Virus record (IMG/VR): IMGVR_UViG_3300030117_002964
Location: 1 to 21,756 of that record
Reading direction: 5' to 3' (one strand)
Length of the DNA stretch: 21,756 nt
Source: a virus
Made by a program: the position numbers and the translations under genes. Shown piece after piece: positions 7,081 to 19,632 of the stretch; the first letter of the stretch is position 1; each line of letters begins with the position of its first letter. Below the pieces are notes generated by a model. The model was not told where the DNA came from. It was given only the letters and a program-made list of their open reading frames with translations, and made no database searches.

Positions 7081-7671
7081 ATGGCTTCAGTCGTTGACAT
7101 TTGTAACAGTGCCTTAAACCAGATTGGTGCATCCAACATAATCTCTTTGACTGAAGACAGTAAATCGGCTCGAATCCTGAACCAGCGTTATGACTTTGTG
7201 CGTGATGCTGTGTTCAGGGCTCACCCCTGGAATCCTTTGATTACCAGAGTTGTATTAGCTCCCGATGCAACAGCCCCAGCTTTTGAGTTTACGAATCAAT
7301 TTACTTTACCAACAGATCCATTCTGTCTGCGAGTTTTGAGTTTTGACTTTCACGATATTGTTTATCGGGTAGAAGGCAGAAAGATCTTGTGTAGCGAAGA
7401 CACAATTAATCTGTTATATGTCGGAAGAATCACTGATCCGAATCAATATGATACGCTTTTGATCGAGACTATTGCAGCGGCACTTGCTGCTGACATTGCA
7501 TATCCGCTTGTCGGAAGTAATACGCTTGCACAACAGTTTCGTATTATTTATGAAGAAAAACTCAGAGAAGCGCGGTTTGTTGATGCAACCGAAGGAACGC
7601 CAGCCAGTATAACCAGTGTCACGGATAGTGGTAGCATTGAGGCAGATACGTTTATCAGATCGAGGTTCTGA
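7081..7671 (+). CDS. Tail tubular protein A (T7 gp11-like adaptor)
   Basis: Forms the dodecameric adaptor between portal and nozzle. It has 196 residues, the same length as T7 gp11. The N-terminus carries the family pattern VDICNSALNQIGA (5-17), then a helix with SKSARILNQRYDFVRDAVFR (27-46) and AHPWN. The middle is beta-rich (EFTNQFTLPTDPFCLRVL), and a C-terminal helix includes LIETIAAALAADIAYPL and RIIYEEKLREAR. Its stop shares one base with the nozzle ATG (TGATG), so the two tail-tube proteins are translationally coupled. Confidence 0.93.
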   Translation: MASVVDICNSALNQIGASNIISLTEDSKSARILNQRYDFVRDAVFRAHPWNPLITRVVLAPDATAPAFEFTNQFTLPTDPFCLRVLSFDFHDIVYRVEGRKILCSEDTINLLYVGRITDPNQYDTLLIETIAAALAADIAYPLVGSNTLAQQFRIIYEEKLREARFVDATEGTPASITSVTDSGSIEADTFIRSRF

Positions 7672-10262
7672 TGGCGAAAGCAAGTCCAACCTTTTCAAAC
7701 TTTACCGCTGGCGAACTATCGCCAAAGCTTGATGGGCGCACCGAACTTTCAAAGTATTTTAACGGAGCGAAGCAACTTCAAAACTTTCTCGTTGTACCAC
7801 AAGGCGGCGCAACACGAAGACCAGGCACTCAATTTATTGCTGAAACAAAAACTAGTGCAAATGCTTCTAGGCTAATTGCCTTTGAGTTTAATGTGACTCA
7901 AGCTTACATCCTGGAGTTTGGAAACAATTATTTTCGTATATTCAAGGATGGTGGACAGGTTGTTGATGGCAGCAGTAATCCTATCGAGGTAACGACCACA
8001 TACACATCTGCTCAACTATCAGGCTTAAAGTTTGCTCAGTCTGCTGATGTGATGTTCATAGTTCACCCGGATCATAAACCAAGACAAATCACTCGGACAG
8101 ATCACGATGCATGGACGATCACGGATGTTGCATTCCGCAGGGGTCCAATGCTAGATGCACAGCTTGACGGAACGACATTAACTGCTAATGGAAGAACTGG
8201 GACAGGGGTAACTATTTCAGCAAGCGCCAATACTTTTGCCTCCACAGATGTCGGTCGTTTGGTAAAACTGCATGATGGGTTTGCTGAGATCACTGCGTTT
8301 ACTAATGCAACAACAGTCACCGCAACGGTAAAAGAGAATGAAGATCGCAGATCAGAGTTGATGCCAGCAATGACGGCAACAACGATTTCTTTCCATGAGG
8401 GCGATCCAAGTAGTACAGGTCTTGAGCATAATGATCGCTTGCAAGACTCTGCTGGTGGATTTTTGAGCGAAGGCTTTAAAGTCGGAATGAAAGTAACGAT
8501 CACAGGAAGCACTAGTAACAACAAAAGTTCTGCTCTTATCGTGACTATTACAGCTGATACGATGTTATTTGCTCCATCAGTTGATCTTGTTGATGAAGCA
8601 GCAGGAGATACAGTTACAATCAATGGTGATCTGGTTGCTGATGATGAGTTTGCTTTAGGGGCTTTTTCAACGACAACAGGGTTCCCAGCAGCAGTTTCAT
8701 TCTTTGAACAGCGTTTAGTTTTTGCCAACACGACAGCAAATCCTCAAACAATTTTCTTTTCTGTTGGCGGTGATTTTACAGATTTCGCAATCGGCACAAG
8801 AGATGATTCTGCTCTGGTCTATACGATTGGAAGCAACCAGGTCAATGTCATTCGTTACCTTACTAGCTCTCGACAGCTTTTGGTTGGAACGTCAGGTGGT
8901 GAGTTTGTTGTTCGGGCAGGATCAGTTGATGCACCAATTAGCCCAACAAATACACAAATTAAGCGTCAGGCAAGTTATGGTTCTGCTGATATACAGCCCA
9001 TAACAGTTGCAAACGTAGCTCTATTCGTACAACGAGCAGGACGAAAACTAAGAGAGTTGACGTATAACTTTGACACAGATTCTTATATAGCTCCTGATAT
9101 GACTCTTCTTGCAGAGCATATCACTGAGGGCTTGATCAAAGAGATGGCGTTTCAGCAAGAGCCAGATAACGTAGTCTGGTGTATTTTAAAAAACGGCAAG
9201 TTTGTCGGCATGACTTACAGGCGAGAAGAAGATGTTGTTGCATGGCATGAGCATATCTTTGGCGGTGTCAGTGGAGCTTGTACGATTACGGTCACAGATT
9301 TTACAAATATAGCAGTAGGAACTACATTGACTTTTACAAAGTCTGATGGAAATACGGTAACATTTACATCTGAAGCCTCCAGCGGTGAATCTCCCTCTTC
9401 ATCGCTGGGCTTCAGACCAAACGAGTCAAATAACACAACAGCAGACAATATTTTCACAGCAGTCAACGCCCATGCTGATTTTACCGTAGCGAATCCTAGC
9501 GCGAATGTGGTCACGATTGAGGAAACGCAAAGGGCTGGATCTGGGTTTCTTTCGGTTGTCAGTACAGATACGACTCGGCTGGCAACGACAGATCAAAGCT
9601 TTGCCCTGGCAGAATCAGTCGCAGTGATTCCATCTGAAACTACTGAGGATGAGGTCTACGTCCTGGTCAATCGCACGATCAATGGCTCGACTAAAAGATA
9701 TGTTGAGAGAATGAAGCCTATTGACTTTGGAACAGATATTGAGAATGCGTTTTTTGTAGACAGCGGATTGACTTACTCTGGAAGCGCAGCAACTTCAATT
9801 AGTGGGTTGAATCATTTAGAGGGCGAGAATGTTCGTATTATTGCAAATGGCTCAACACATCCCGATAAATTAGTCAGTAGTGGTGCTATTACTTTGGATC
9901 GATCAACAACAAAGGCACACATCGGATTGAGCTACGAATCAACACTGCAAACCATGCGGGTTGAAGCTGGAGGTACAGAAGGAACTTCTCAGGGTAAGAC
10001 AAAACGCATACGAGATTTAACTTTGCGTGTTCTCGATTCAGTTGGAGCAAAAGTTGGCCCAGATGAGAACAATCTTGAGTTGATTCCTTTCCGTGATAGC
10101 TCAATGAGTATGGATGAAGCAGTGCCTTTGTTTACAGGCGATAAAGACATTGAGTTTCCATCGGGGTATGATTCTGATGGGTTTATTGTGGTGAAGCAGG
10201 ATCAAGCACTTCCCTTGACAATCCTATCTATCTTCCCACGTTTACAGACATTTGATAGGTAA
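7671..10262 (+). CDS. Tail tubular protein B (T7 gp12-like nozzle), with inserted modules
   Basis: Hexameric tail nozzle that closes the DNA channel until ejection. 863 residues against 794 in T7 gp12. The N-terminal signature is SNFTAGELSPKLDGRTEL (9-26), then LQNFLVVPQGGATRRPGT (36-52). Other landmarks are FASTDVGRLVKL (189-200), GFPAAVSFFEQRLVFANT (337-354), the propeller-like centre with SSRQLLVGTSGGEF (399-412), VVAWHEHIFGG (522-532), ESVAVIP (648-654) and NRTINGSTKRYVER (667-680). Two segments appear to be inserted into this framework: about 235-320, with a GFLSEGFKVGMKVTITGS-type beta module, and about 533-645, a Thr/Ser/Asn-rich beta module. The end FIVVKQDQALPLTILSI is typical of the family. 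Confidence 0.92.
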   Translation: MAKASPTFSNFTAGELSPKLDGRTELSKYFNGAKQLQNFLVVPQGGATRRPGTQFIAETKTSANASRLIAFEFNVTQAYILEFGNNYFRIFKDGGQVVDGSSNPIEVTTTYTSAQLSGLKFAQSADVMFIVHPDHKPRQITRTDHDAWTITDVAFRRGPMLDAQLDGTTLTANGRTGTGVTISASANTFASTDVGRLVKLHDGFAEITAFTNATTVTATVKENEDRRSELMPAMTATTISFHEGDPSSTGLEHNDRLQDSAGGFLSEGFKVGMKVTITGSTSNNKSSALIVTITADTMLFAPSVDLVDEAAGDTVTINGDLVADDEFALGAFSTTTGFPAAVSFFEQRLVFANTTANPQTIFFSVGGDFTDFAIGTRDDSALVYTIGSNQVNVIRYLTSSRQLLVGTSGGEFVVRAGSVDAPISPTNTQIKRQASYGSADIQPITVANVALFVQRAGRKLRELTYNFDTDSYIAPDMTLLAEHITEGLIKEMAFQQEPDNVVWCILKNGKFVGMTYRREEDVVAWHEHIFGGVSGACTITVTDFTNIAVGTTLTFTKSDGNTVTFTSEASSGESPSSSLGFRPNESNNTTADNIFTAVNAHADFTVANPSANVVTIEETQRAGSGFLSVVSTDTTRLATTDQSFALAESVAVIPSETTEDEVYVLVNRTINGSTKRYVERMKPIDFGTDIENAFFVDSGLTYSGSAATSISGLNHLEGENVRIIANGSTHPDKLVSSGAITLDRSTTKAHIGLSYESTLQTMRVEAGGTEGTSQGKTKRIRDLTLRVLDSVGAKVGPDENNLELIPFRDSSMSMDEAVPLFTGDKDIEFPSGYDSDGFIVVKQDQALPLTILSIFPRLQTFDR

Positions 10263-10264
10263 AT

Positions 10265-10768
10265 ATGGGCGCACCATTAGCAGTAGGAGTAGCATTAGGG
10301 TCATCGCTTCTTTCAGCGAGAGCGACTCTACAGGCAGGAAAAGCCCAGGCTGCTGCTGCGTCTTTCAATGCTCAGGTTAATCAAAGAAATGCTCAGAAAG
10401 CGCAGATTGATAAGCGCAGTGCAAAGCTAGGTTCAGAACTTGCAATTCAACAATTTCAGAATGAGTTTCAGAAACTTCAAGCAACTACTGGATCAGTCCT
10501 CAGAAAAAATGGTTTTGATACATCTGGAGGCACTCCTGCATTGATTGCGTTGGAAAATGCAAGACAAGCAGATTTGGAAATAGCTGCAAGGAGATTCAAT
10601 GCGAGTGTCGAATCACAGGCATTTGATGAAGTTTCTGTTGAACAGGATCTACAAGCAAGTTTGTCTAGAATGGAAGGGGCAGCAGCAAGCAAAGCTGCCA
10701 GAACAAGGGCAGCAGCAACATTGCTGGGCGGCGCAAGTTCCGCTTACACAACGTATAAGATGGCATGA
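10265..10768 (+). CDS. Internal virion protein, T7 gp14-like
   Basis: Predicted smallest ejection protein, which in T7 leaves the head first and forms the outer-membrane part of the DNA conduit. 167 residues (T7 gp14: 196). It has an N-terminal hydrophobic Ala/Gly stretch (APLAVGVALGSSLLSA, 3-18), then a long Ala/Gln-rich helical and coiled-coil body (22-150) with TGSVLRKNGFDTSGGTPALI in the middle, a pattern seen in gp14-like proteins. Assignment rests on its place directly after gp12-like and before two large internal proteins, and on composition. ATGA overlap with the next gene. Confidence 0.78.
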   Translation: MGAPLAVGVALGSSLLSARATLQAGKAQAAAASFNAQVNQRNAQKAQIDKRSAKLGSELAIQQFQNEFQKLQATTGSVLRKNGFDTSGGTPALIALENARQADLEIAARRFNASVESQAFDEVSVEQDLQASLSRMEGAAASKAARTRAAATLLGGASSAYTTYKMA

Positions 10769-13329
10769 AAGTCCCAACATACAAGCAAGAAACAGCTAGA
10801 ACAAGAAAAACAGGCTCTCGCAACTTTTCAACTCAGGTCAGCGGCAGAGCTTTGGCTGCTCCGTTTGAAGCGCAGGCAGAGGCTTTTGGTCAGCTTGCCA
10901 ATCAATCTTTGGACTTTATGAGCGCACAACTCAAAAGAGAGCGTGATAGTCAAGAAGATGATGAACAAAATGCTTACATTGAAGAACGAGCAAGAGTTTT
11001 GCAAGTCATTGATGAAACTCCTGTCGGGCAAACTTTCCCTGATTTGTTTTTCCCAGAAACAAGTATTTCTGGGAAAGGAGATGCAATCACGTTCAATTCA
11101 GAATCAGATGCTGAAAGATTTTTTGAGCAATCTATGCAGAGATTCAAGGCGAATCGGGGTTTTCAGTTTGCCAATAAGCAGAGAGAAGATAGCTTTACAT
11201 CTAGGATTGAAAGAAACGATATCCTCATAAAATCCAAGTTAGTCACTAACTCAAGGGAAAGAGTGGTTGCGAAAGCGTTTGCTTCCTTCTCAAATAATCT
11301 CGACACTCTTGCTAATGATGCATTACAACAAGCAAGAGACTTGCCTGTCAGTTTTGTATATGACTTTCCCTCTGGTGATGAAGAACAATCTTTTGTTTTC
11401 GCATTGAATAATCCACAAATTCAAGCACAGTTCAATGAGATATTCGATAAAATTGACAACGGTGTTTCAAATGGATTTTTCTCAGAAGAAAAAGCAATCG
11501 AAATCAAAGCAAAAACAAAAAAAGACCTTTCACTTAACATTTTGAAAGATCAAATCAATCGAGCGACTAGCATCGAAAGCTTGGAATTTATGCAGCAACA
11601 AATTGAAAAACTGCAAACATCTGACATATCTACTCAAGATCGGATCACTTTGCTTGACGTAACAGAGGAAGATATCGATGCATTCAGAGCTGCGAAAACC
11701 GCAGAAGAAAAAGCGGAATTGGCAAGACAAAAAGGCTTTAGCACAGACCTTACTTTGCAACTGACAGAAGAATTAGAAAAAAATCCTGATGATGCTGAAA
11801 CCATCCGTGCATTACTGGTTGATGGTGCTCTTGACGAGCAATTGCTTCCTTCAGACAGAATAACATTGCTACGTCTGGTCAATTCCAAAGTGAATGAAGT
11901 AAGCGAATCGCAAAGGGCTCTGATAGAGTCTCTGAGGGCAAGAGCTGGGTATGTCGAAGATATTGTTGGACAAGGTGTTAGCCCTGATCGCCCAAGGACA
12001 GAGGCATTGGTTAGCGATTTGATTGATGTTGGAGAGATAGACAGAGCTAATCGTTTGAAGCTTGTTTTGAAAGTTGATGAATTGACTAGCTCCGTAGACG
12101 GAATGTCACCGGGGGCAATTTCTGCCCGAATCAACGATGTAAACGATACAGCACCATTGCAGATGTTTCCAGGTTCTTCTGTTGAGGAAGCAGCAGCGTT
12201 TCAGCAGATTGTTCTAAATTCATTAAAGAAGAAAGGATCTGAGGCATCTGTATTCTTTCAAAAAAGATTTCCATTAGATTATTTTGCGGAGACAAATGAA
12301 GTTCCCGAACTTGATTATACAAATAGAGAGTCGATTAATGCGAGGCTTGATCTAGCGGAGCAAGCCACGCAAAAATTTACACAGGGGTCGGGCCAATCGT
12401 TTGATCAAGTAAAAAAACAAATGCAGCCTTTGCGGGAGTCAGAGGTTAAGGGGATCGCGGATTTGTTGGACGGCGAGGATCTTACTCCTCAAGAAAAAGC
12501 AAACCTTTTGATTACGCTTCAGCCGTTGCTTTCTGAGTACCCTTCTACCATATCAAAACTGGCTGAGTCCAAAAAAGCTGACGTTTACGTTCTGGCTAGT
12601 CAGCTACCAATTGAGGTTGCAGGAGATATTGTCAGCGGTTTGAACCAGCCAAAGGTTCTTGGTCAGGTGACACTCAAAGATTTGGAAGATGGAGTCCGTG
12701 AAGCAGTTGGTGAGACATTTAACTACATTTCTGATGGCAGAAGAACTCAGGCCGTAGTTGAGAAATCGATTATTGCTCATGTTCGTGCGAATGCGCCAGC
12801 AAACTTTGAAGACGCTGATCTTCCTGAACTAATTGACAATGCTATTGATTTGATTGCGCCTATCGGAAAAAGGGGCGACAACACTTTCGAGCTTCCAAGG
12901 CCACTGAATGTGAACGGTGACGATGATTCGTTTGGCAGGATGTTTGATCGCGTTGGTAACGAAATCACGGATCTCGATCAGAAAAGAGATTTGATGGAAT
13001 TGTGGTTTGAAAATTTCTCTGTCGACATGATCAAAGCATTTGCTGGCGAGGGACTTTCGGACGGTTTTGAAACAAACGAAAAGTTAGAAGTTGTAGCGAA
13101 ACAGATTCGAGATGGAAAATTACTGCCTGTCAGCATCAACAATAATAAGTATGCCTTTGTGCAAGGCGGCCCGAACATGGAAAGATTGTCTAAAAAAAAT
13201 GGAAAACCCTTCTTTGTTTCTTGGACTCCAGACATCGAGCGTATCTTATACAGCATTCTGCTTGAGAAGCAAAAGGGTCGCGGCAGAGGCAATATTGCTT
13301 CACAAGCAGAAGATGGGGAAACCAGATAA
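10765..13329 (+). CDS. Internal virion protein, T7 gp15-like
   Basis: Predicted ejection protein of the periplasmic tunnel. 854 residues (T7 gp15: 747), almost wholly helical and highly charged, with no signal peptide or enzyme motif that I can see. The N-terminus is basic (TARTRKTGSRN), followed by AAPFEAQAEAFGQLANQSLDFMSAQLKR, a pattern also seen in other gp15-like proteins. The central part is rich in Glu/Lys/Gln helices (AAKTAEEKAELARQKGF and similar), and the tail RGRGNIASQAEDG is Gly/Arg-rich. It sits between gp14-like and gp16-like genes and shares one base with the next start. Function is by position and composition. Confidence 0.75.
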   Translation: MKVPTYKQETARTRKTGSRNFSTQVSGRALAAPFEAQAEAFGQLANQSLDFMSAQLKRERDSQEDDEQNAYIEERARVLQVIDETPVGQTFPDLFFPETSISGKGDAITFNSESDAERFFEQSMQRFKANRGFQFANKQREDSFTSRIERNDILIKSKLVTNSRERVVAKAFASFSNNLDTLANDALQQARDLPVSFVYDFPSGDEEQSFVFALNNPQIQAQFNEIFDKIDNGVSNGFFSEEKAIEIKAKTKKDLSLNILKDQINRATSIESLEFMQQQIEKLQTSDISTQDRITLLDVTEEDIDAFRAAKTAEEKAELARQKGFSTDLTLQLTEELEKNPDDAETIRALLVDGALDEQLLPSDRITLLRLVNSKVNEVSESQRALIESLRARAGYVEDIVGQGVSPDRPRTEALVSDLIDVGEIDRANRLKLVLKVDELTSSVDGMSPGAISARINDVNDTAPLQMFPGSSVEEAAAFQQIVLNSLKKKGSEASVFFQKRFPLDYFAETNEVPELDYTNRESINARLDLAEQATQKFTQGSGQSFDQVKKQMQPLRESEVKGIADLLDGEDLTPQEKANLLITLQPLLSEYPSTISKLAESKKADVYVLASQLPIEVAGDIVSGLNQPKVLGQVTLKDLEDGVREAVGETFNYISDGRRTQAVVEKSIIAHVRANAPANFEDADLPELIDNAIDLIAPIGKRGDNTFELPRPLNVNGDDDSFGRMFDRVGNEITDLDQKRDLMELWFENFSVDMIKAFAGEGLSDGFETNEKLEVVAKQIRDGKLLPVSINNNKYAFVQGGPNMERLSKKNGKPFFVSWTPDIERILYSILLEKQKGRGRGNIASQAEDGETR

Positions 13330-15383
13330 TGCCTTTTCTAAGCGATAGAGGAGAACGCTCTTTTGAACAAGAGTTTGCTCCGATTGAGTTGTTTGAGGAG
13401 TCAGGATTTTACGAAACTCTGGGCGCTGCTTTTGATCTAACCGTTGATGAAGAACTGTCGATTTCAGCGATGCGTAATCGTGAAATGTTTGAAGAGCGCA
13501 ATCAAAACGTCAGATCTCTCATTAGTGATGGCGTGATTGATCGAGACAAATATAGCGACCCAAGGGGTCGATTTGATTATGATCGCTTGTCGAGAGATCT
13601 TGAAGATACAGAATTTTCAGGTTTGGTCAAAAATAACAGAACTTTGCGTGACGAGCGCAATGAAATGTTGCGTATCCGTAGAGAGCGAAATGAGAAAGTT
13701 ATCGAGCGCGGGTCTGGTTTGGCGCAGTTTTTGGGTATGGGCGGTGGATTGTTACTTGATCCTGTGAACCTAGCAAGCGTTGGCGGCGGTCTTTTCATCA
13801 CTGCGGCCCGAAGCGGAACAGTTCTTGGTCGGGCGTTGTACGGCCTCAAGACAGAGGCTGGTCTTGCAGCAGCGTCAGAAGCAGCCATCCAACCACTTGT
13901 TTTTTATCATAAAAACGATATCGACTCACCTTACTCTGTCGGTGACGCTCTGACAAACATCGCAGTAGCTTCCACATTTGGTGGGGCTTTGGGCTTCGGC
14001 TTTGGTGGCATCGCAGGATATTTTGGTAGAGCAGCTGAAAAATCAAGAGAGGGATTTGTCAATTCTTTACCAGACAAGCCTATCGAAGTTGAAACAGGCA
14101 ACATTGCGTTTATTCAAGCAAGGTTTCCTTCTTTTGTCCCAACTGGCGAAGGCAAAACATCTGTCAAAACCACTTTTAACAAAAATCAGATTGATGAAAT
14201 CGTCAAAAGATCAAAACAAAATCGTGAAAGATTAACTAAAGCTCAAATATTGAAGCGCAATCAGCTTGAAGAGATACAGGATCAATATGATATCGGAAAG
14301 ATCGACAGCGCAGAAAAGTCTCGCAAAATCGATGATGCAGATGCGCTAGTGCGAGAAATCCAAGAAGAGATAGAGAAAGACGATATCATCCTTGATGCGA
14401 TTATGGATGCCAGTGGCTCAAAGATATTTCGCGTTGGTATAGAGAAGATTCGTCATTTCAGTAGGCTCGTTGAGTCTTTCGTTGTTGAGAGACCAGATAC
14501 TGCTAATAACATTTTGGCAAAAGAGCTTGAAGAATACTTAGAGCAAGATGTTGAAAAGCAGTTTGCAAATATTCCTAAACTGGTTGAGCGTCTGAACAAA
14601 AAGAAAGAACCTTTACAAAAATCAAGTGAACTTATGAAGGCTTGGGTCATTTCCATTGGTGGGCTGAATCGTAAAGATTTTCAGTCAATGACGAATTTCG
14701 ATGACGCTGTTTTCAATCCTCAAAAAAATAAGTTGGGTGTGGGATTCTGGAGGTCAGGGAATGACGGTAAAACTGTTGATGGATTGATTGAGGCGTTGGG
14801 GGAAGACGGGACACTAGCTTACAACTTCCGTTACGAAGAGGGCATCCAACCACAGCTTACAAACGAGGCCATTGCGTTTGTTGAAGCGATTGTTGCGAAC
14901 CCAAGGCTAGTCAAGTCTGATGACGCAAGAGCACAACTTGATGCCTTAGATCGAGAAATCGCAGACCTTGAAAGATTGACAGAAGAAGATATCCGCCAAG
15001 GTCAATTGAGAGAGAGGTTTGAATCTTTTGTTGAGAACGTCAACACTGAACACCGTGAGAACTTGGAGCGATTCCAGCAAGTTGTAGAAAACTTTGAAGA
15101 AGATTTGCTTGAGCCTCAGGACTTTCTTCCTGACAGAGACTTTGCTGATTTGGATGAAACTGAAATTGAGATTCGCGATGCAGAAAGGAGAGTGCTTGAA
15201 TCTCAAGGCTTGAGCGAAGCGCATGATCGTAATATGTCTGAGTATGCAAGGCTGTCAGACGAAGATCAGAATGTGACGATTGAGATCGATGGGGTTGAAA
15301 GAAACATCAAAGATTTTGTAGAGCAACAGGATAACGATTTGTCTGCTTTGAATGAACTGAAGAGGTGTGTGAGAGGTGTCTAG
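13329..15383 (+). CDS. Giant ejection protein, N-terminal part (T7 gp16-like)
   Basis: 684 residues. The N-terminal 125 residues are charged and helical. Three Gly/Ala-rich hydrophobic stretches follow: about 128-160 (LGMGGGLLLDPVNLASVGGG), 178-195 and 208-233 (GGALGFGFGGIAGYFG), compatible with membrane insertion after ejection. A coiled-coil region covers about 280-430. At 439-497, VISIGGLNRKDF, GVGFWRSGNDGKTVDGLIEAL and GEDGTLAY resemble the small linker domain recurrent in large polyvalent phage proteins (inference). The end is an acidic coiled coil finishing LNELKRCVRGV. I see no lytic transglycosylase motif like that of T7 gp16. It overlaps the next frame by 8 bases; together 1492 residues against 1318 in T7 gp16. 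Confidence 0.75.
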   Translation: MPFLSDRGERSFEQEFAPIELFEESGFYETLGAAFDLTVDEELSISAMRNREMFEERNQNVRSLISDGVIDRDKYSDPRGRFDYDRLSRDLEDTEFSGLVKNNRTLRDERNEMLRIRRERNEKVIERGSGLAQFLGMGGGLLLDPVNLASVGGGLFITAARSGTVLGRALYGLKTEAGLAAASEAAIQPLVFYHKNDIDSPYSVGDALTNIAVASTFGGALGFGFGGIAGYFGRAAEKSREGFVNSLPDKPIEVETGNIAFIQARFPSFVPTGEGKTSVKTTFNKNQIDEIVKRSKQNRERLTKAQILKRNQLEEIQDQYDIGKIDSAEKSRKIDDADALVREIQEEIEKDDIILDAIMDASGSKIFRVGIEKIRHFSRLVESFVVERPDTANNILAKELEEYLEQDVEKQFANIPKLVERLNKKKEPLQKSSELMKAWVISIGGLNRKDFQSMTNFDDAVFNPQKNKLGVGFWRSGNDGKTVDGLIEALGEDGTLAYNFRYEEGIQPQLTNEAIAFVEAIVANPRLVKSDDARAQLDALDREIADLERLTEEDIRQGQLRERFESFVENVNTEHRENLERFQQVVENFEEDLLEPQDFLPDRDFADLDETEIEIRDAERRVLESQGLSEAHDRNMSEYARLSDEDQNVTIEIDGVERNIKDFVEQQDNDLSALNELKRCVRGV

Positions 15384-17802
15384 GTACGAACAATGTATGC
15401 TAAAGCTCTCACAAGCAGAGCGTGATGAGGAACGGCTAAGTCAGTCTTTGAAACAATCCATTGAACAAAATATGGAGAAGGGGATTGATCCAGAGGCTGT
15501 CGTTGATGAACTTGTAAACAAGATATCAAGAGCCAAAAGAGAGGCAGCAATGCAAGCTGTTGTTCTCAAAAAACGCAAAAATGATTTTGATGGCTACACG
15601 CAGACGATTTCAGGCGAAACACCTAGCTATTACACAAAACTGATGGCCTTGTTGACGAAGGACTCAGCGTTTGGTGCGCCTTACAGGAATGTTGAGTACA
15701 CGGCAAGATCATACTCAAAGAGATTTCACACCGATTTAAGTGGTTTGCTCAATAGATTCCAAAAAAAAGGTCTTGGGTTTTCTGACGATGAAGCAAATTT
15801 GAACAAGCTCATTCGCGCCATCTATGGAGAGGCGACAGATGATGTTGAAATCAATCAGTTTGCAAAAGATTGGCTGAAGCTTGTAGATCGTACAGTAGAT
15901 TTGAAAAACAAATTTGGCGCATCTATCTCCAAGAACGAAGACTTCTTGTTACCTCAACGCCATGATCCAGGCGCTATATTGAAATTAGCAAAAGATCGGA
16001 ATGATGCAAAACGCATTTGGATAGACCGCATCAGGGACAAGCTTGATTACACAAAGATGCTTGACGACCAAGGAAGACAGCTGACTCAGCTTGAGATTTT
16101 TGGAACTCAGGATGAAGACGGCTTGCTTGGGAATGTGTTTGAAAGCATCGTTACTGGTGGTATGAACAAAGTCGGGCCACTGGAAGCGCCTCGGACGATG
16201 GGGCGTAAATTATCTCGCAAAGGTTCTGATCAAAGGGTCTTGTATTTTAAGGACGCTGAATCTTGGATTGAATATCAAAACGACTTTGGGCGAGGGGATA
16301 TTTTTGGGACTCTTGTTGACTTTATCGAGTCCTCTGCAAATGACATTGCTTTACTTGAGTTGATGGGGCCAAACCCAGAAACGACCTGGAGAGTATTTTT
16401 AGCGCAAGCGCAAAAATCAGGAATCAATACGCTTCAAGCCAGGCGATTGCAAGACACATGGAATGTTGTGTCAGGTTTTGTGAACGCAGGCAATCCAATG
16501 GCTTTTGGTAATATGTTCCAAGCAGCAAGGAACCTCGACCAAGCGGCTTTGCTGGGTTCTGCTTTAATATCAGCTATTTCTGATATCGGGTTCCAAACCA
16601 TTACAGCCCAATACAACAAGTTACCTACGTTTCGGATTCTGGGGAAAACGTTGCAGACTTTAGCAACTCCAGATGGAGATCTTAGAATCGCAGCACAGAT
16701 TGGTTTAGGTGCAGATGCATGGATCACAATGGCTCATTCTTCTAATCGCTTTGGGGAAACCTATGGGATTGGGCTGACATCCAAACTAGCGAATGCTGTT
16801 ATGAAGGCATCTTTCTTGGAGCCTTGGACAAATGGCAATAAACGAGCTTTTGGAATGGAGTTTTCTGGGGTTCTTGCAAGATCATTCGATACAGAGTGGG
16901 AAGCTTTGGATGCAGGGTTTCGCTCGATGATGGAGCGCAACGGCATCGTGAAAAGGGAATGGGATCAATTTAGATCTACTGAGGTGCTTGAATACGAGGG
17001 TGCAGTTTTTGCAAACTTCAATGCAGACGAATCTTTGAAGTTTCAGTCAATGGTTTTACAGGAGACTGATATTGCAGTACCTAGTCCCGATGCAAGGGTA
17101 AGGGCTGTAATGACGATGGGGCGGCAAAGGGGGACACCAGAAGGAGAGTTCTACAGATCGTTTTTTGCGATCAAATCATTCCCGATCACAATCGCCATGA
17201 CTCACATGACTCGCGGATGGTATGCAGGATCACAGGCTAGTCGGGCAAAGTACCTTGGGAGTCTTCTGGTTACAACAACAGCATTGGGTGCGATTGCTTT
17301 ACAGGCGAAAGATATTGTTGCAGGGCGTGATCCAAGGGCTTTAAACAAAGACGGAGGCATGATCCCTGACAGAGATTTTCTGACAGCAGCGATGCTCCAG
17401 GGCGGCGGTCTTGGTATCTTTGGAGATTTTGTTTTTGCTGATACGAGTCGCTTTGGAAAAGGGTTATTTGAAACACTTGCAGGGCCATCATTTGATACGG
17501 CTGACAGGTTTGTAAGATTTACTAAGGGAACTGTCCGTTCAGTAATCAGTGATGAAGAATTTAATATTCTTGGGGAAGGCGCAAAAATCATTGACCGATA
17601 TACACCAAGTATCTGGCAGACTAAATTGTTTGAGCAAGCATTCTTTCAATCATTGCAGGAAATGGTAGATCCAGAGGCAGACAAAAAATTAAGAAGGCTT
17701 ATGCGTTCAAGAGAAAAAGAATACAATCAAGGATTCTGGTGGAGTCCTGACAAATTTAGTCCAGATCGAGCGCCTGATTTTGGCGGCGTAATTAGGGAGT
17801 AA
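15376..17802 (+). CDS. Giant ejection protein, C-terminal part (T7 gp16-like)
   Basis: 808 residues from GTG 15376 (AGAGG at 15361-15365, 10 bases upstream); ATG 15397 (residue 8) is an alternative. It opens with a coiled coil (10-70) that could continue the one ending the upstream frame. Blocks of the kind common in podovirus ejection proteins include GASISKNEDFLLPQRHDPGA (181-200), LYFKDAESWIEYQNDFGRGD (289-308), SSANDIALLELMGPNP (319-334), EFYRSFFAIKSFPITIAMTH (591-610), a hydrophobic stretch (626-645), IVAGRDPRAL (647-656) and LQGGGLGIFGDFVFAD (674-689). In relatives I would expect this to be the end of one long polypeptide. Either a natural split, a +1 shift or a sequence error explains the two frames. 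Confidence 0.8.
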   Translation: MSRYEQCMLKLSQAERDEERLSQSLKQSIEQNMEKGIDPEAVVDELVNKISRAKREAAMQAVVLKKRKNDFDGYTQTISGETPSYYTKLMALLTKDSAFGAPYRNVEYTARSYSKRFHTDLSGLLNRFQKKGLGFSDDEANLNKLIRAIYGEATDDVEINQFAKDWLKLVDRTVDLKNKFGASISKNEDFLLPQRHDPGAILKLAKDRNDAKRIWIDRIRDKLDYTKMLDDQGRQLTQLEIFGTQDEDGLLGNVFESIVTGGMNKVGPLEAPRTMGRKLSRKGSDQRVLYFKDAESWIEYQNDFGRGDIFGTLVDFIESSANDIALLELMGPNPETTWRVFLAQAQKSGINTLQARRLQDTWNVVSGFVNAGNPMAFGNMFQAARNLDQAALLGSALISAISDIGFQTITAQYNKLPTFRILGKTLQTLATPDGDLRIAAQIGLGADAWITMAHSSNRFGETYGIGLTSKLANAVMKASFLEPWTNGNKRAFGMEFSGVLARSFDTEWEALDAGFRSMMERNGIVKREWDQFRSTEVLEYEGAVFANFNADESLKFQSMVLQETDIAVPSPDARVRAVMTMGRQRGTPEGEFYRSFFAIKSFPITIAMTHMTRGWYAGSQASRAKYLGSLLVTTTALGAIALQAKDIVAGRDPRALNKDGGMIPDRDFLTAAMLQGGGLGIFGDFVFADTSRFGKGLFETLAGPSFDTADRFVRFTKGTVRSVISDEEFNILGEGAKIIDRYTPSIWQTKLFEQAFFQSLQEMVDPEADKKLRRLMRSREKEYNQGFWWSPDKFSPDRAPDFGGVIRE

Positions 17803-17805
17803 TTA

Positions 17806-19632
17806 ATGACAGTATCAAGCACAACTAACAAGGTAAGTTACTCAGGGAACGGCTCAACAACTGTTTTTGCGTATACGTTCAAGATATTTGCTGATGCTGA
17901 TCTCAAGGTCTTCATCAGAAGCTCTGCGGGTGTAGAGACTCTGAAGACCCTAACGACTCACTACACAGTGTCGAACGCTGGTAACGCAAGTGGTGGGAAC
18001 GTGACGTTTACCACTGGTAACACGCCAGCATCAGGTGAAACGGTGGTGATTCAGCGTGAACTGGCCCTGACCCAGGGTACAGACTATGTAGAAAACGACC
18101 CATTTCCAGCGGAATCGCATGAGGATGCTCTTGATCGCTTGACGTTTATCACACAGCAGCAACAGGAAGAGATTGATCGGGCGATCAAAGCATCGGTCAC
18201 AAACACGATTTCATCAACAGAGTTTGCTGTTTCTGCTTCAGATCGAGCTAACAAGATACTGAGTTTTGATGGTTCAGGTGACTTGACAGTTACTGAGGGC
18301 AAGGTTGATACAGTATCAACATCTGTCTCTGCTGTATCGGCAGGAGGAACGCCTACGGCAAGTGCAACCTATACTGCAAGTAGTGGTGCTTTAGCTTTAG
18401 CGTTCGGACTAGTAACAGGAAACACAGGTGCTTCAGGAAGCACAGGAAGCCAAGGCGTTGCGGGAAGCGATGGATCAAACGCTGGTTTAGCGATGACTTT
18501 CAGCAACTCTACCTCTGATGCTGATCCTGGAAGTGGTAAGTTAGCTTTTAACAACGCAACTGTGAGTTCAGTCAGTATTTTATTTATTGATGATGCTGAC
18601 GATAATTCCGTGGACATTTCTGGATTCGTGCAATCATTCGATGATGTGGTGAACTCAACAGCCAGGGGAATCATACTGATCACCAAAGAAGGCACTCCAT
18701 CGACTTTCGCTTTGTTCAAGGTAAGTGGTGCAGTGACCGATGCATCAGGTTATACGAAGGTTCCTGTTACGCATGTTGTCAGTAATGGCACGTTCAGTAA
18801 TTCTGATGGAATCACAGTATCGTTCTCTTATTCTGGTGCAGATGGTAATGCAGCTGGAAGTTCCAGCTTAGTCACGACAGGCGCATTGGATTCTGGGTCT
18901 ATTACAAGCGGTTTTGGCAGCATCAATAATGGTGCTAGTGCTATTACTACTACAGGGGTTATTACTGGCGGCACAGTCGAGGCAACTGGAGATACATCTG
19001 CTGGTGACAATGCGGCCTTGGGTTTTACCGCTGCTGAAGGCGCAATCATTACAGGTCAGGGTTCGACTAATGATGTGACAATTAAAAATGATGCAGACGC
19101 TGCTGTTATTAAAGTACCTACAGGCACAACTAATGTTGAGGTCGTGGGCAACCTGACGGTTGGTGGAACACTAAGCGGAGTGACCACTGGTAAAGTTTTA
19201 CAGGTGGTTCAGGCTATTGAGCAGAGAGACTCCAACGCAAGCTCTTCAGGAACTTCTTATTCAAATGTAACTGGTTTAGAGTGTGCAATAACTCCAAGTG
19301 CTACAAGCTCTAAGATACTCGTTGAAGCAAGCTTTTATGTGCACACCCAATCCCAAAACTATTCTGATATCACTTTATTCAGAGACAGCACTAATTTAGC
19401 AACAAACACTTCTTCAAGATTCTTAAATCAAAGAGGTGATGGAGACAGTGATAATTCAAACAACGGTTTCGGATTTTTTGGAATGGTGACTTTGCAGATT
19501 CTGGACTCGCCTAGCTCGACTTCTGAGCTTGATTATACGCTTCAATCAAAACGAGGCGATCCGCAGAACGGAAGTATTATTTTCCTAGGCGGGGCGGTCA
19601 ATACAATAATCTGCACAGAAATCGCTGGATAA
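17806..19632 (+). CDS. Tail fibre protein (T7 gp17-type N-terminus, modular)
   Basis: Trimeric receptor-binding fibre. 608 residues (T7 gp17: 553). Residues 1-130 are the T7-type tail attachment domain: YSGNGSTTVFAYTFKIFADA, LKVFIRSSAGVE, then VIQRELALTQGTDYVENDPF (81-100), ending ALDRLTFITQQQQEEIDRA. After a linker, a short collagen-like run of Gly-X-Y triplets occupies 205-227. A beta domain covers about 230-345 (FIDDADDNSVDISGF), and a Gly/Thr/Ala-rich shaft 355-460 (SGSITSGFGSINNGASAITT; VVGNLTVGGTLSG). The C-terminal tip (463-608, KVLQVVQAIEQRD to the end) is probably the receptor-binding head. AGGGAG (17794-17799) is 6 bases upstream of ATG. Confidence 0.9.
   Translation: MTVSSTTNKVSYSGNGSTTVFAYTFKIFADADLKVFIRSSAGVETLKTLTTHYTVSNAGNASGGNVTFTTGNTPASGETVVIQRELALTQGTDYVENDPFPAESHEDALDRLTFITQQQQEEIDRAIKASVTNTISSTEFAVSASDRANKILSFDGSGDLTVTEGKVDTVSTSVSAVSAGGTPTASATYTASSGALALAFGLVTGNTGASGSTGSQGVAGSDGSNAGLAMTFSNSTSDADPGSGKLAFNNATVSSVSILFIDDADDNSVDISGFVQSFDDVVNSTARGIILITKEGTPSTFALFKVSGAVTDASGYTKVPVTHVVSNGTFSNSDGITVSFSYSGADGNAAGSSSLVTTGALDSGSITSGFGSINNGASAITTTGVITGGTVEATGDTSAGDNAALGFTAAEGAIITGQGSTNDVTIKNDADAAVIKVPTGTTNVEVVGNLTVGGTLSGVTTGKVLQVVQAIEQRDSNASSSGTSYSNVTGLECAITPSATSSKILVEASFYVHTQSQNYSDITLFRDSTNLATNTSSRFLNQRGDGDSDNSNNGFGFFGMVTLQILDSPSSTSELDYTLQSKRGDPQNGSIIFLGGAVNTIICTEIAG

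Follow-up and report, generated by a model that had tools for sequence, protein, structure and literature searches.

The stretch of DNA analyzed here raises the question of why the tail nozzle protein of a marine phage carries, between two well-conserved flanks, a beta-rich segment of some 110 residues, and whether this segment is a part of the nozzle proper or a domain with a history of its own. A first-pass annotation had proposed the latter, namely a mobile, surface-exposed domain shuffled between virion proteins and possibly binding glycans.

The carrier is a gp12-type tail nozzle

The window, by which we mean the whole stretch of 21,756 nucleotides, comes from a pelagiphage of the HTVC010P type. 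This 21.8-kb viral fragment encodes the terminase, the portal and capsid proteins, tail tubular A, the nozzle and internal virion proteins, as well as a fibre whose anchor is T7-like. Three features of the nozzle gene concern us first:

7671..10262, plus strand: tail nozzle (tail tubular protein B, gp12-like), 863 residues, carrier of the module (phrog_376, E 2.3e-227)
8148..8648, plus strand: residues 160-326, variable domain in place of T7's nozzle tip, without sequence relation to the module
9267..9605, plus strand: inserted module, residues 533-645, absent from L028 and most pelagiphage isolates

Membership of the carrier in the tail nozzle family (phrog_376/gp12-like) rests on both a full-length profile match and a propeller fold. 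The best stretch against the PHROG tail-protein profile phrog_376 covered residues 1-537, with a second stretch elsewhere in the protein, and the full-length AlphaFold model (pLDDT 87.6, pTM 0.83) matched the Carin-1 nozzle 8ck1 (VIA, Z 45.2, 1.9 A over 646 residues) and T7 gp12 (Z about 27). The tip-region domain differs greatly from one related nozzle to the next, in both length and sequence (tblastn gaps around residues 220-326), and it looks as though it may also be exchangeable.

The insert is discrete and absent from close homologues

The insert proposed at 9267-9605 is real: residues 533-645 form a discrete, in-frame segment whose site is empty in close homologues, and its flanks, WHEHIFGG and ESVAVIP, are those originally given. 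By profile and model, the folded domain within it spans approximately residues 535-641 (9273-9593). Of the cores in the collections, that of L028 is the closest (84% identity across 422 columns) and is module-free; a short linker joins its flanks, and it reads VVAWHEHELGGEYDDGSNTYDYGFVESVASIP where the window has VVAWHEHIFGG, about 110 residues, and ESVAVIP. Among the isolates, only HTVC010P and HTVC034P have the module (49-50% identical), and the flanks are joined almost directly in HTVC203P, HTVC035P, HTVC100P, Greip, Skadi and Lederberg. The same site, called S533 hereafter, is empty in the solved Carin-1 nozzle.

Because 433 open reading frames carry the module (fetched loci, i-E < 1e-5, with some contigs counted more than once), the insert is not a chance feature. 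As expected of a mobile domain, it is present or absent among close homologues whose core is intact (L028, HTVC203P and others); by parsimony, S533 changed between filled and empty 12 times, at least 8 of these changes being forced by supported branches. No target-site duplication or direct repeats were seen by eye at the insert borders, the difference in GC content between module (45.6%) and core (43.6%) is not noteworthy, and our literature search found no paper describing this insert.

In EXVC032P Baldr (L011:3022-3339), S533 is occupied by an unrelated beta-rich domain of about 84 residues, of the HGLSTGDAV type, relatives of which are encoded on four contigs (L302-L305). Since Baldr has an unrelated domain at this place and other nozzles have none, position 533 is an accepting site rather than a one-off. 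Three module-bearing nozzles (L227, L228 and L229) lie on contigs of Pelagibacteraceae single-cell genomes; these phages were therefore probably caught while infecting SAR11 cells.

The module is predicted to fold by itself

When the module was folded alone with 35 natural relatives (AlphaFold; pLDDT 93, pTM 0.86), it showed the topology beta3-alpha-beta4, with strands at residues 537-541, 552-556 and 562-567, a helix at 592-600, and strands at 604-606, 613-618, 628-631 and 637-640. By this model, it is a separately folding domain of about 110 residues. In the model of the 863-residue protein, a check suggested in the first-pass annotation, the module lies between strand 522-528 and strand 646-653.

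The best structural match was the sheath of cyanophage A-1(L) (8kee, Z 10.9), followed by the nozzle tip regions of P-SCSP1u and T7-like phages, whose Z of 7.1-9.4 over 86-91 residues is at the edge of the common-fold level, and by the outer domains of FliD and flagellin (Z about 6-8). Eighteen predicted viral proteins share the fold at E<0.001 with low identity, and other virion proteins commonly have this fold too, at 12-25% identity. The likeness to motifs of marine virion proteins that the first-pass annotation had pointed to thus holds at the level of the fold but not of the sequence family. Pfam gave no accepted match, and Flagellin_IN, taken up as a motif lead, was rejected as the module's family on that account; the best PHROG match had E 0.002, and a PDB sequence search with the module returned nothing significant. 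Pfam Ig_3 reached E 0.0014 at best and in only 2 of the 35 members, while Foldseek matches to Ig domains had E 0.3 or worse and low probability. No profile match to lectin or carbohydrate-binding families was convincing. Two possible sources of the module were discarded: it is not a copy of the tip-region domain in the window's own nozzle (hhalign probability 0.2), nor is it derived by sequence from a T7-type tip, hmmsearch and hhalign being negative against the tips of HTVC309P, HTVC120P, HTVC105P and T7.

The module occupies four positions in gp12-type nozzles

Positions are numbered by the residues of the window's core with the module removed. In gp12-type nozzles the module follows core residue 533 in most cases, and core residues 65, 562 and 594 in others (S65, S562 and S594). 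The equivalents of the last three sites are empty in the window:

7845..7868, plus strand: loop 59-66, equivalent of S65; module there in L231, L232, L265 and others
9678..9689, plus strand: hairpin at about residues 670-673 in RTINGSTKRY, equivalent of S562; module there in L273, L285, L292, L253 and others
9780..9791, plus strand: residues about 704-707, equivalent of S594; module there in L117 and L230

Close carriers may differ in position: L231 and L232 are 60% identical to L117, yet their module is at S65 and their S594 is empty. The two nozzles filled at S594, L117 and L230, are 96% identical in the core and 91% in the module. L273 combines a core of the window's kind with a module of the other of two subfamilies (see below), at S562.

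Several nozzles were of unusual composition. L381 (ORF from 1803) carries two: next to a typical module at S533, it has a divergent one at S65. In L297 (ORF from 2382), a GETVTGGTSSATG-type repeat stretch of about 70 residues (residues about 102-164) is nested inside the S65 module, that is, an insertion within an insertion. The Carin-1 nozzle (PDB 8ck1) has a different extra domain at the S594 position (residues about 590-668), which weakly resembles the window's own residues 173-219; this hints at a candidate second mobile domain of this nozzle.

Two other hub families carry the module, and no other kind of protein was found to do so

We scanned for the module with a DNA pattern of its conserved peptide, which is blind to gene context. 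This context-free scan yielded at least 117 new loci and one already collected; seven loci without a module were chance matches. Among the matches listed, 101 of the 110 genuine modules were in gp12-type nozzles and the other 9 in a hub of about 600 residues, so that the notion of a module confined to the gp12-type family had to be abandoned. The 600-residue hub belongs to phrog_3287 (E down to 9e-67) and is similar to the VP1 nozzle 8zkk (E 1e-13). L380 and its relatives are phrog_3287 hubs with the module, which the isolate HTVC106P, 73% identical, lacks. The first module position in this family recurs in eight contigs, and a second, some 40 residues further on, was found in one contig (L404). 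L490, also a single contig and retrieved by a search other than the scan, is a T7-type nozzle (Pfam Phage_nozzle, PF25675, E 1.9e-86) with a module, and the isolate HTVC309P, 64.5% identical to it, is empty at the exact place. In total, the module occupies at least seven positions in three hub families (four gp12-type, one T7-type and two phrog_3287). The same domain is thus found in different protein families (L490; L380 and others), as a mobile domain would be.

All 110 modules among the matches listed are in tail nozzle or hub proteins and none in a head, fibre or baseplate protein, although rare exceptions are possible. When 50,697 phage records were searched by tblastn with module variants (E<1), only HTVC010P and HTVC034P were found; plasmids gave no module match, and 13 of the larger records, searched whole, contained one clear copy each. 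The idea of shuffling between virion proteins therefore stands for the tail hubs of three families but not for other virion proteins. The first-pass annotation would have given up its proposal had all close gp12 homologues carried the segment and no match existed outside the nozzle family; instead, there are close homologues without the module and matches outside that family. The organ specificity of this movable domain appears, from the sequences compared, to be novel, mobile virion domains as such being already known.

A proposed clustering of module positions around blades 7 and 1 of the propeller

The propeller of T7 gp12 has seven blades, Cys504 belonging to blade 7 and Cys554 to blade 1. 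Blade 1 is closed by the strand that comes first in the propeller sequence, and protomers touch through loops between blades (PMC6702177). The blades of the window's nozzle were assigned by DSSP on the model and by profile alignment to T7 (Cys504/Cys554):

9186..9203, plus strand: residues about 506-511, b-c loop of blade 7, equivalent of the T7-type site of L490 as judged via T7 numbering; empty in the window
9234..9254, plus strand: strand 522-528 (VVAWHEH), last strand (d) of blade 7 and left border of S533, by DSSP on the model; aligned to T7 539-545
9606..9629, plus strand: strand 646-653 (about ESVAVIPS), first strand (a) of blade 1 and right border of S533; aligned to the Cys554 strand of T7

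Site 533 is just before Cys554 in the T7 alignment and therefore lies between strand d of blade 7 and strand a of blade 1. The same alignment places site 562 in the b-c hairpin of blade 1 and site 65 after the closing strand, between blades 1 and 2; site 594 is outside the propeller. In such propellers, d-a and b-c loops are on one face by the usual convention. Because these loops share a face, four of the five gp12-type positions, that of L490 included, would be consecutive loops of it, and we infer, having seen the data, that these four cluster around blades 7 and 1 on a single side of the propeller. The proposed surface exposure has indirect support from the tolerated gain and loss, from the positions in propeller loops and from a fold shared with the outer domains of sheaths, flagellin and FliD; it is judged from topology and from a model of the protomer.

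Module and core have separate histories

In pairs with the module at different sites, modules were mostly 48-63% identical and cores 28-31%, and up to 74% versus 23%. The exception was S594 compared with S65, where the core was 59% and the module 50% identical; these closer cores with less similar modules indicate separate histories, as expected if the module is exchanged. Within S533, flank-to-flank distances correlated (rho 0.52), whereas core-to-module distances did not (0.06). The module tree consists of two well supported subfamilies (S533 with S594, and S65 with S562), in contradiction to the core tree, and an AU test gave p = 0.039 against the S65 and S594 modules as one clade, a grouping chosen once the identities were known. 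The module sequence is conserved rather than hypervariable, with a dN/dS of about 0.05 in the one close pair with measurable dS, dS being saturated in most comparisons. The mobility claimed at the outset finds strong support in the empty sites, the several positions, the incongruent trees and the transfer into two other hub families.

Origin and possible function of the module

Since at least seven in-frame positions are filled in three propeller-type hub families, the history of the module is separate from that of its carriers, and the segment is probably an accessory domain of the nozzles of short-tailed phages, autonomous and mobile. Recombination between marine phages would transfer its coding segment among nozzle genes, and nozzles would tolerate the module because its points of entry are surface loops of the propeller. 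It is very improbable that the segment is instead an ancestral nozzle part lost in many lineages, its presence and absence reflecting deletion. Many of the changes at S533 could indeed be losses, parsimony counts being blind to the direction of change, but a single ancestral domain cannot give four positions in one family; moreover, T7-type and phrog_3287 hubs are filled while their nearest isolates are empty, and modules are more alike than their carriers, with core and module distances unlinked. Least probable of all is that the extra positions are chimeras of metagenome assembly: this could apply to L490 and L404, each resting on a single contig, but many contigs have the module at S65, S533 or S562, eight have it at the first phrog_3287 position and two diverged ones (L117 and L230) at S594; the reading frames are open and the insert borders clean.

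The module is best read as an optional decoration on the exterior of the nozzle, of which each hexamer would display six copies. Its conservation (dN/dS as given for one pair) speaks for a partner that is itself conserved, be it the tail or some common envelope feature of the host. We rank the envelope slightly ahead: the most likely function, which we put forward tentatively, is an accessory contact with a conserved host-envelope feature as the nozzle approaches. The suggestion that the module might bind a glycan or receptor and so set host range is improbable. It is in line with the occurrence of the fold in outward-facing domains of sheaths, flagellin and FliD, and accessory adhesion has been proposed for extra sheath domains (PMC9230969). 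However, HTCC1062 is listed as a host both for HTVC010P and HTVC034P, which have the module, and for HTVC035P, Greip and Skadi, which do not, so that the module does not set host range alone and probably does not decide it; strong conservation does not fit a variable receptor-binding surface, and no lectin or carbohydrate-binding family gave a convincing match. The main alternative, ranked only slightly behind the envelope contact, is that the module stabilizes the tail by packing against the fibre dock or in between adjacent protomers of the nozzle, several nearby loops being able to carry it. The succession of four of the five gp12-type positions along a single propeller face near blades 7 and 1, the contacts of T7 protomers through inter-blade loops (PMC6702177) and the purifying selection on a conserved module are all consistent with such a role, but the module is freely gained and lost between close relatives with no visible compensation, and the same module is found in three hub families whose surfaces differ. 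As to the family as a whole, we propose, with rather less assurance than for mobility itself, that it is dedicated to one organ: it would be exchanged among three kinds of propeller-type hub with little or no detectable shared sequence, at seven or more positions, and the gp12-type positions would converge in space on nearly one spot, a single face of blades 7 and 1, so that selection keeps a location on the nozzle rather than a place in the sequence.

Comparison with other accessory domains

Promiscuous domains of phage virion proteins are known; they are usually spread over many proteins, and their roles are obscure. The tip of T7 gp12 (residues about 148-250) and residues 148-242 of the P-SCSP1u nozzle resemble the module in fold class, with strands around one helix, at Z values that common folds may nearly reach, and the tip, too, is attached as a domain to the propeller of this organ (PMC6702177, PMC10575957). 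By contrast, the T7 tip follows blade 3 at the distal end, whereas the module is near blades 7 and 1 and optional, and HMM and hhalign detected no sequence relation between T7-type tips and the module. The outer domain of contractile sheaths (cyanophage A-1(L), PhiTE and Sf14), the best fold match, is similarly an extra, outward domain of a tubular tail protein, for which a role in accessory adhesion or in stability is suggested in PMC9230969; its identity to the module is 12-18% in the best alignments, and both the carrier protein and the tail type differ. The promiscuous Ig-like domains of phage virion proteins (Fraser et al. 2006, cited in PMC9230969) are, like the module, small, beta-rich, exchanged horizontally between phages and dispensable for assembly, but they are spread over many virion proteins, whereas the module is restricted to tail hubs; the module also has a central helix and no accepted Ig match. 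The D2/D3 variable domains of flagellin and FliD are outward domains of tubular assemblies as well, but they are 8-20% identical to the module and their Z is near the background of common folds.

What sets the present case apart is that the same domain, recognizable at 50-90% identity, can be traced as it shifts position in one family and enters two others, the carrier always being the DNA-ejection nozzle of abundant marine phages, largely of SAR11. The module may thus be an unusually organ-specific movable part of a virus, no other kind of protein having been found with it among the matches listed and the phage records searched, and the question arises of why only the nozzle accepts it. Natural matched pairs with and without the module, at different positions, offer material for testing the role of such domains.

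Other features of the window

In HTVC010P-type relatives a gene annotated as acetyltransferase lies 3' of the nozzle gene; this slot is missing in the window (10262-10265). A 133-residue ORF behind the terminase (1535-1936) has no PHROG match and is GNAT-like by eye. Two long ORFs (13329-15383 and 15376-17802) overlap in different frames, the second matching phrog_684 and the first a single phage record. In the tail fibre (17806-19632), the T7-like anchor takes up N-terminal residues 1-130, and a short GXX stretch of collagen-like type lies near residue 205.
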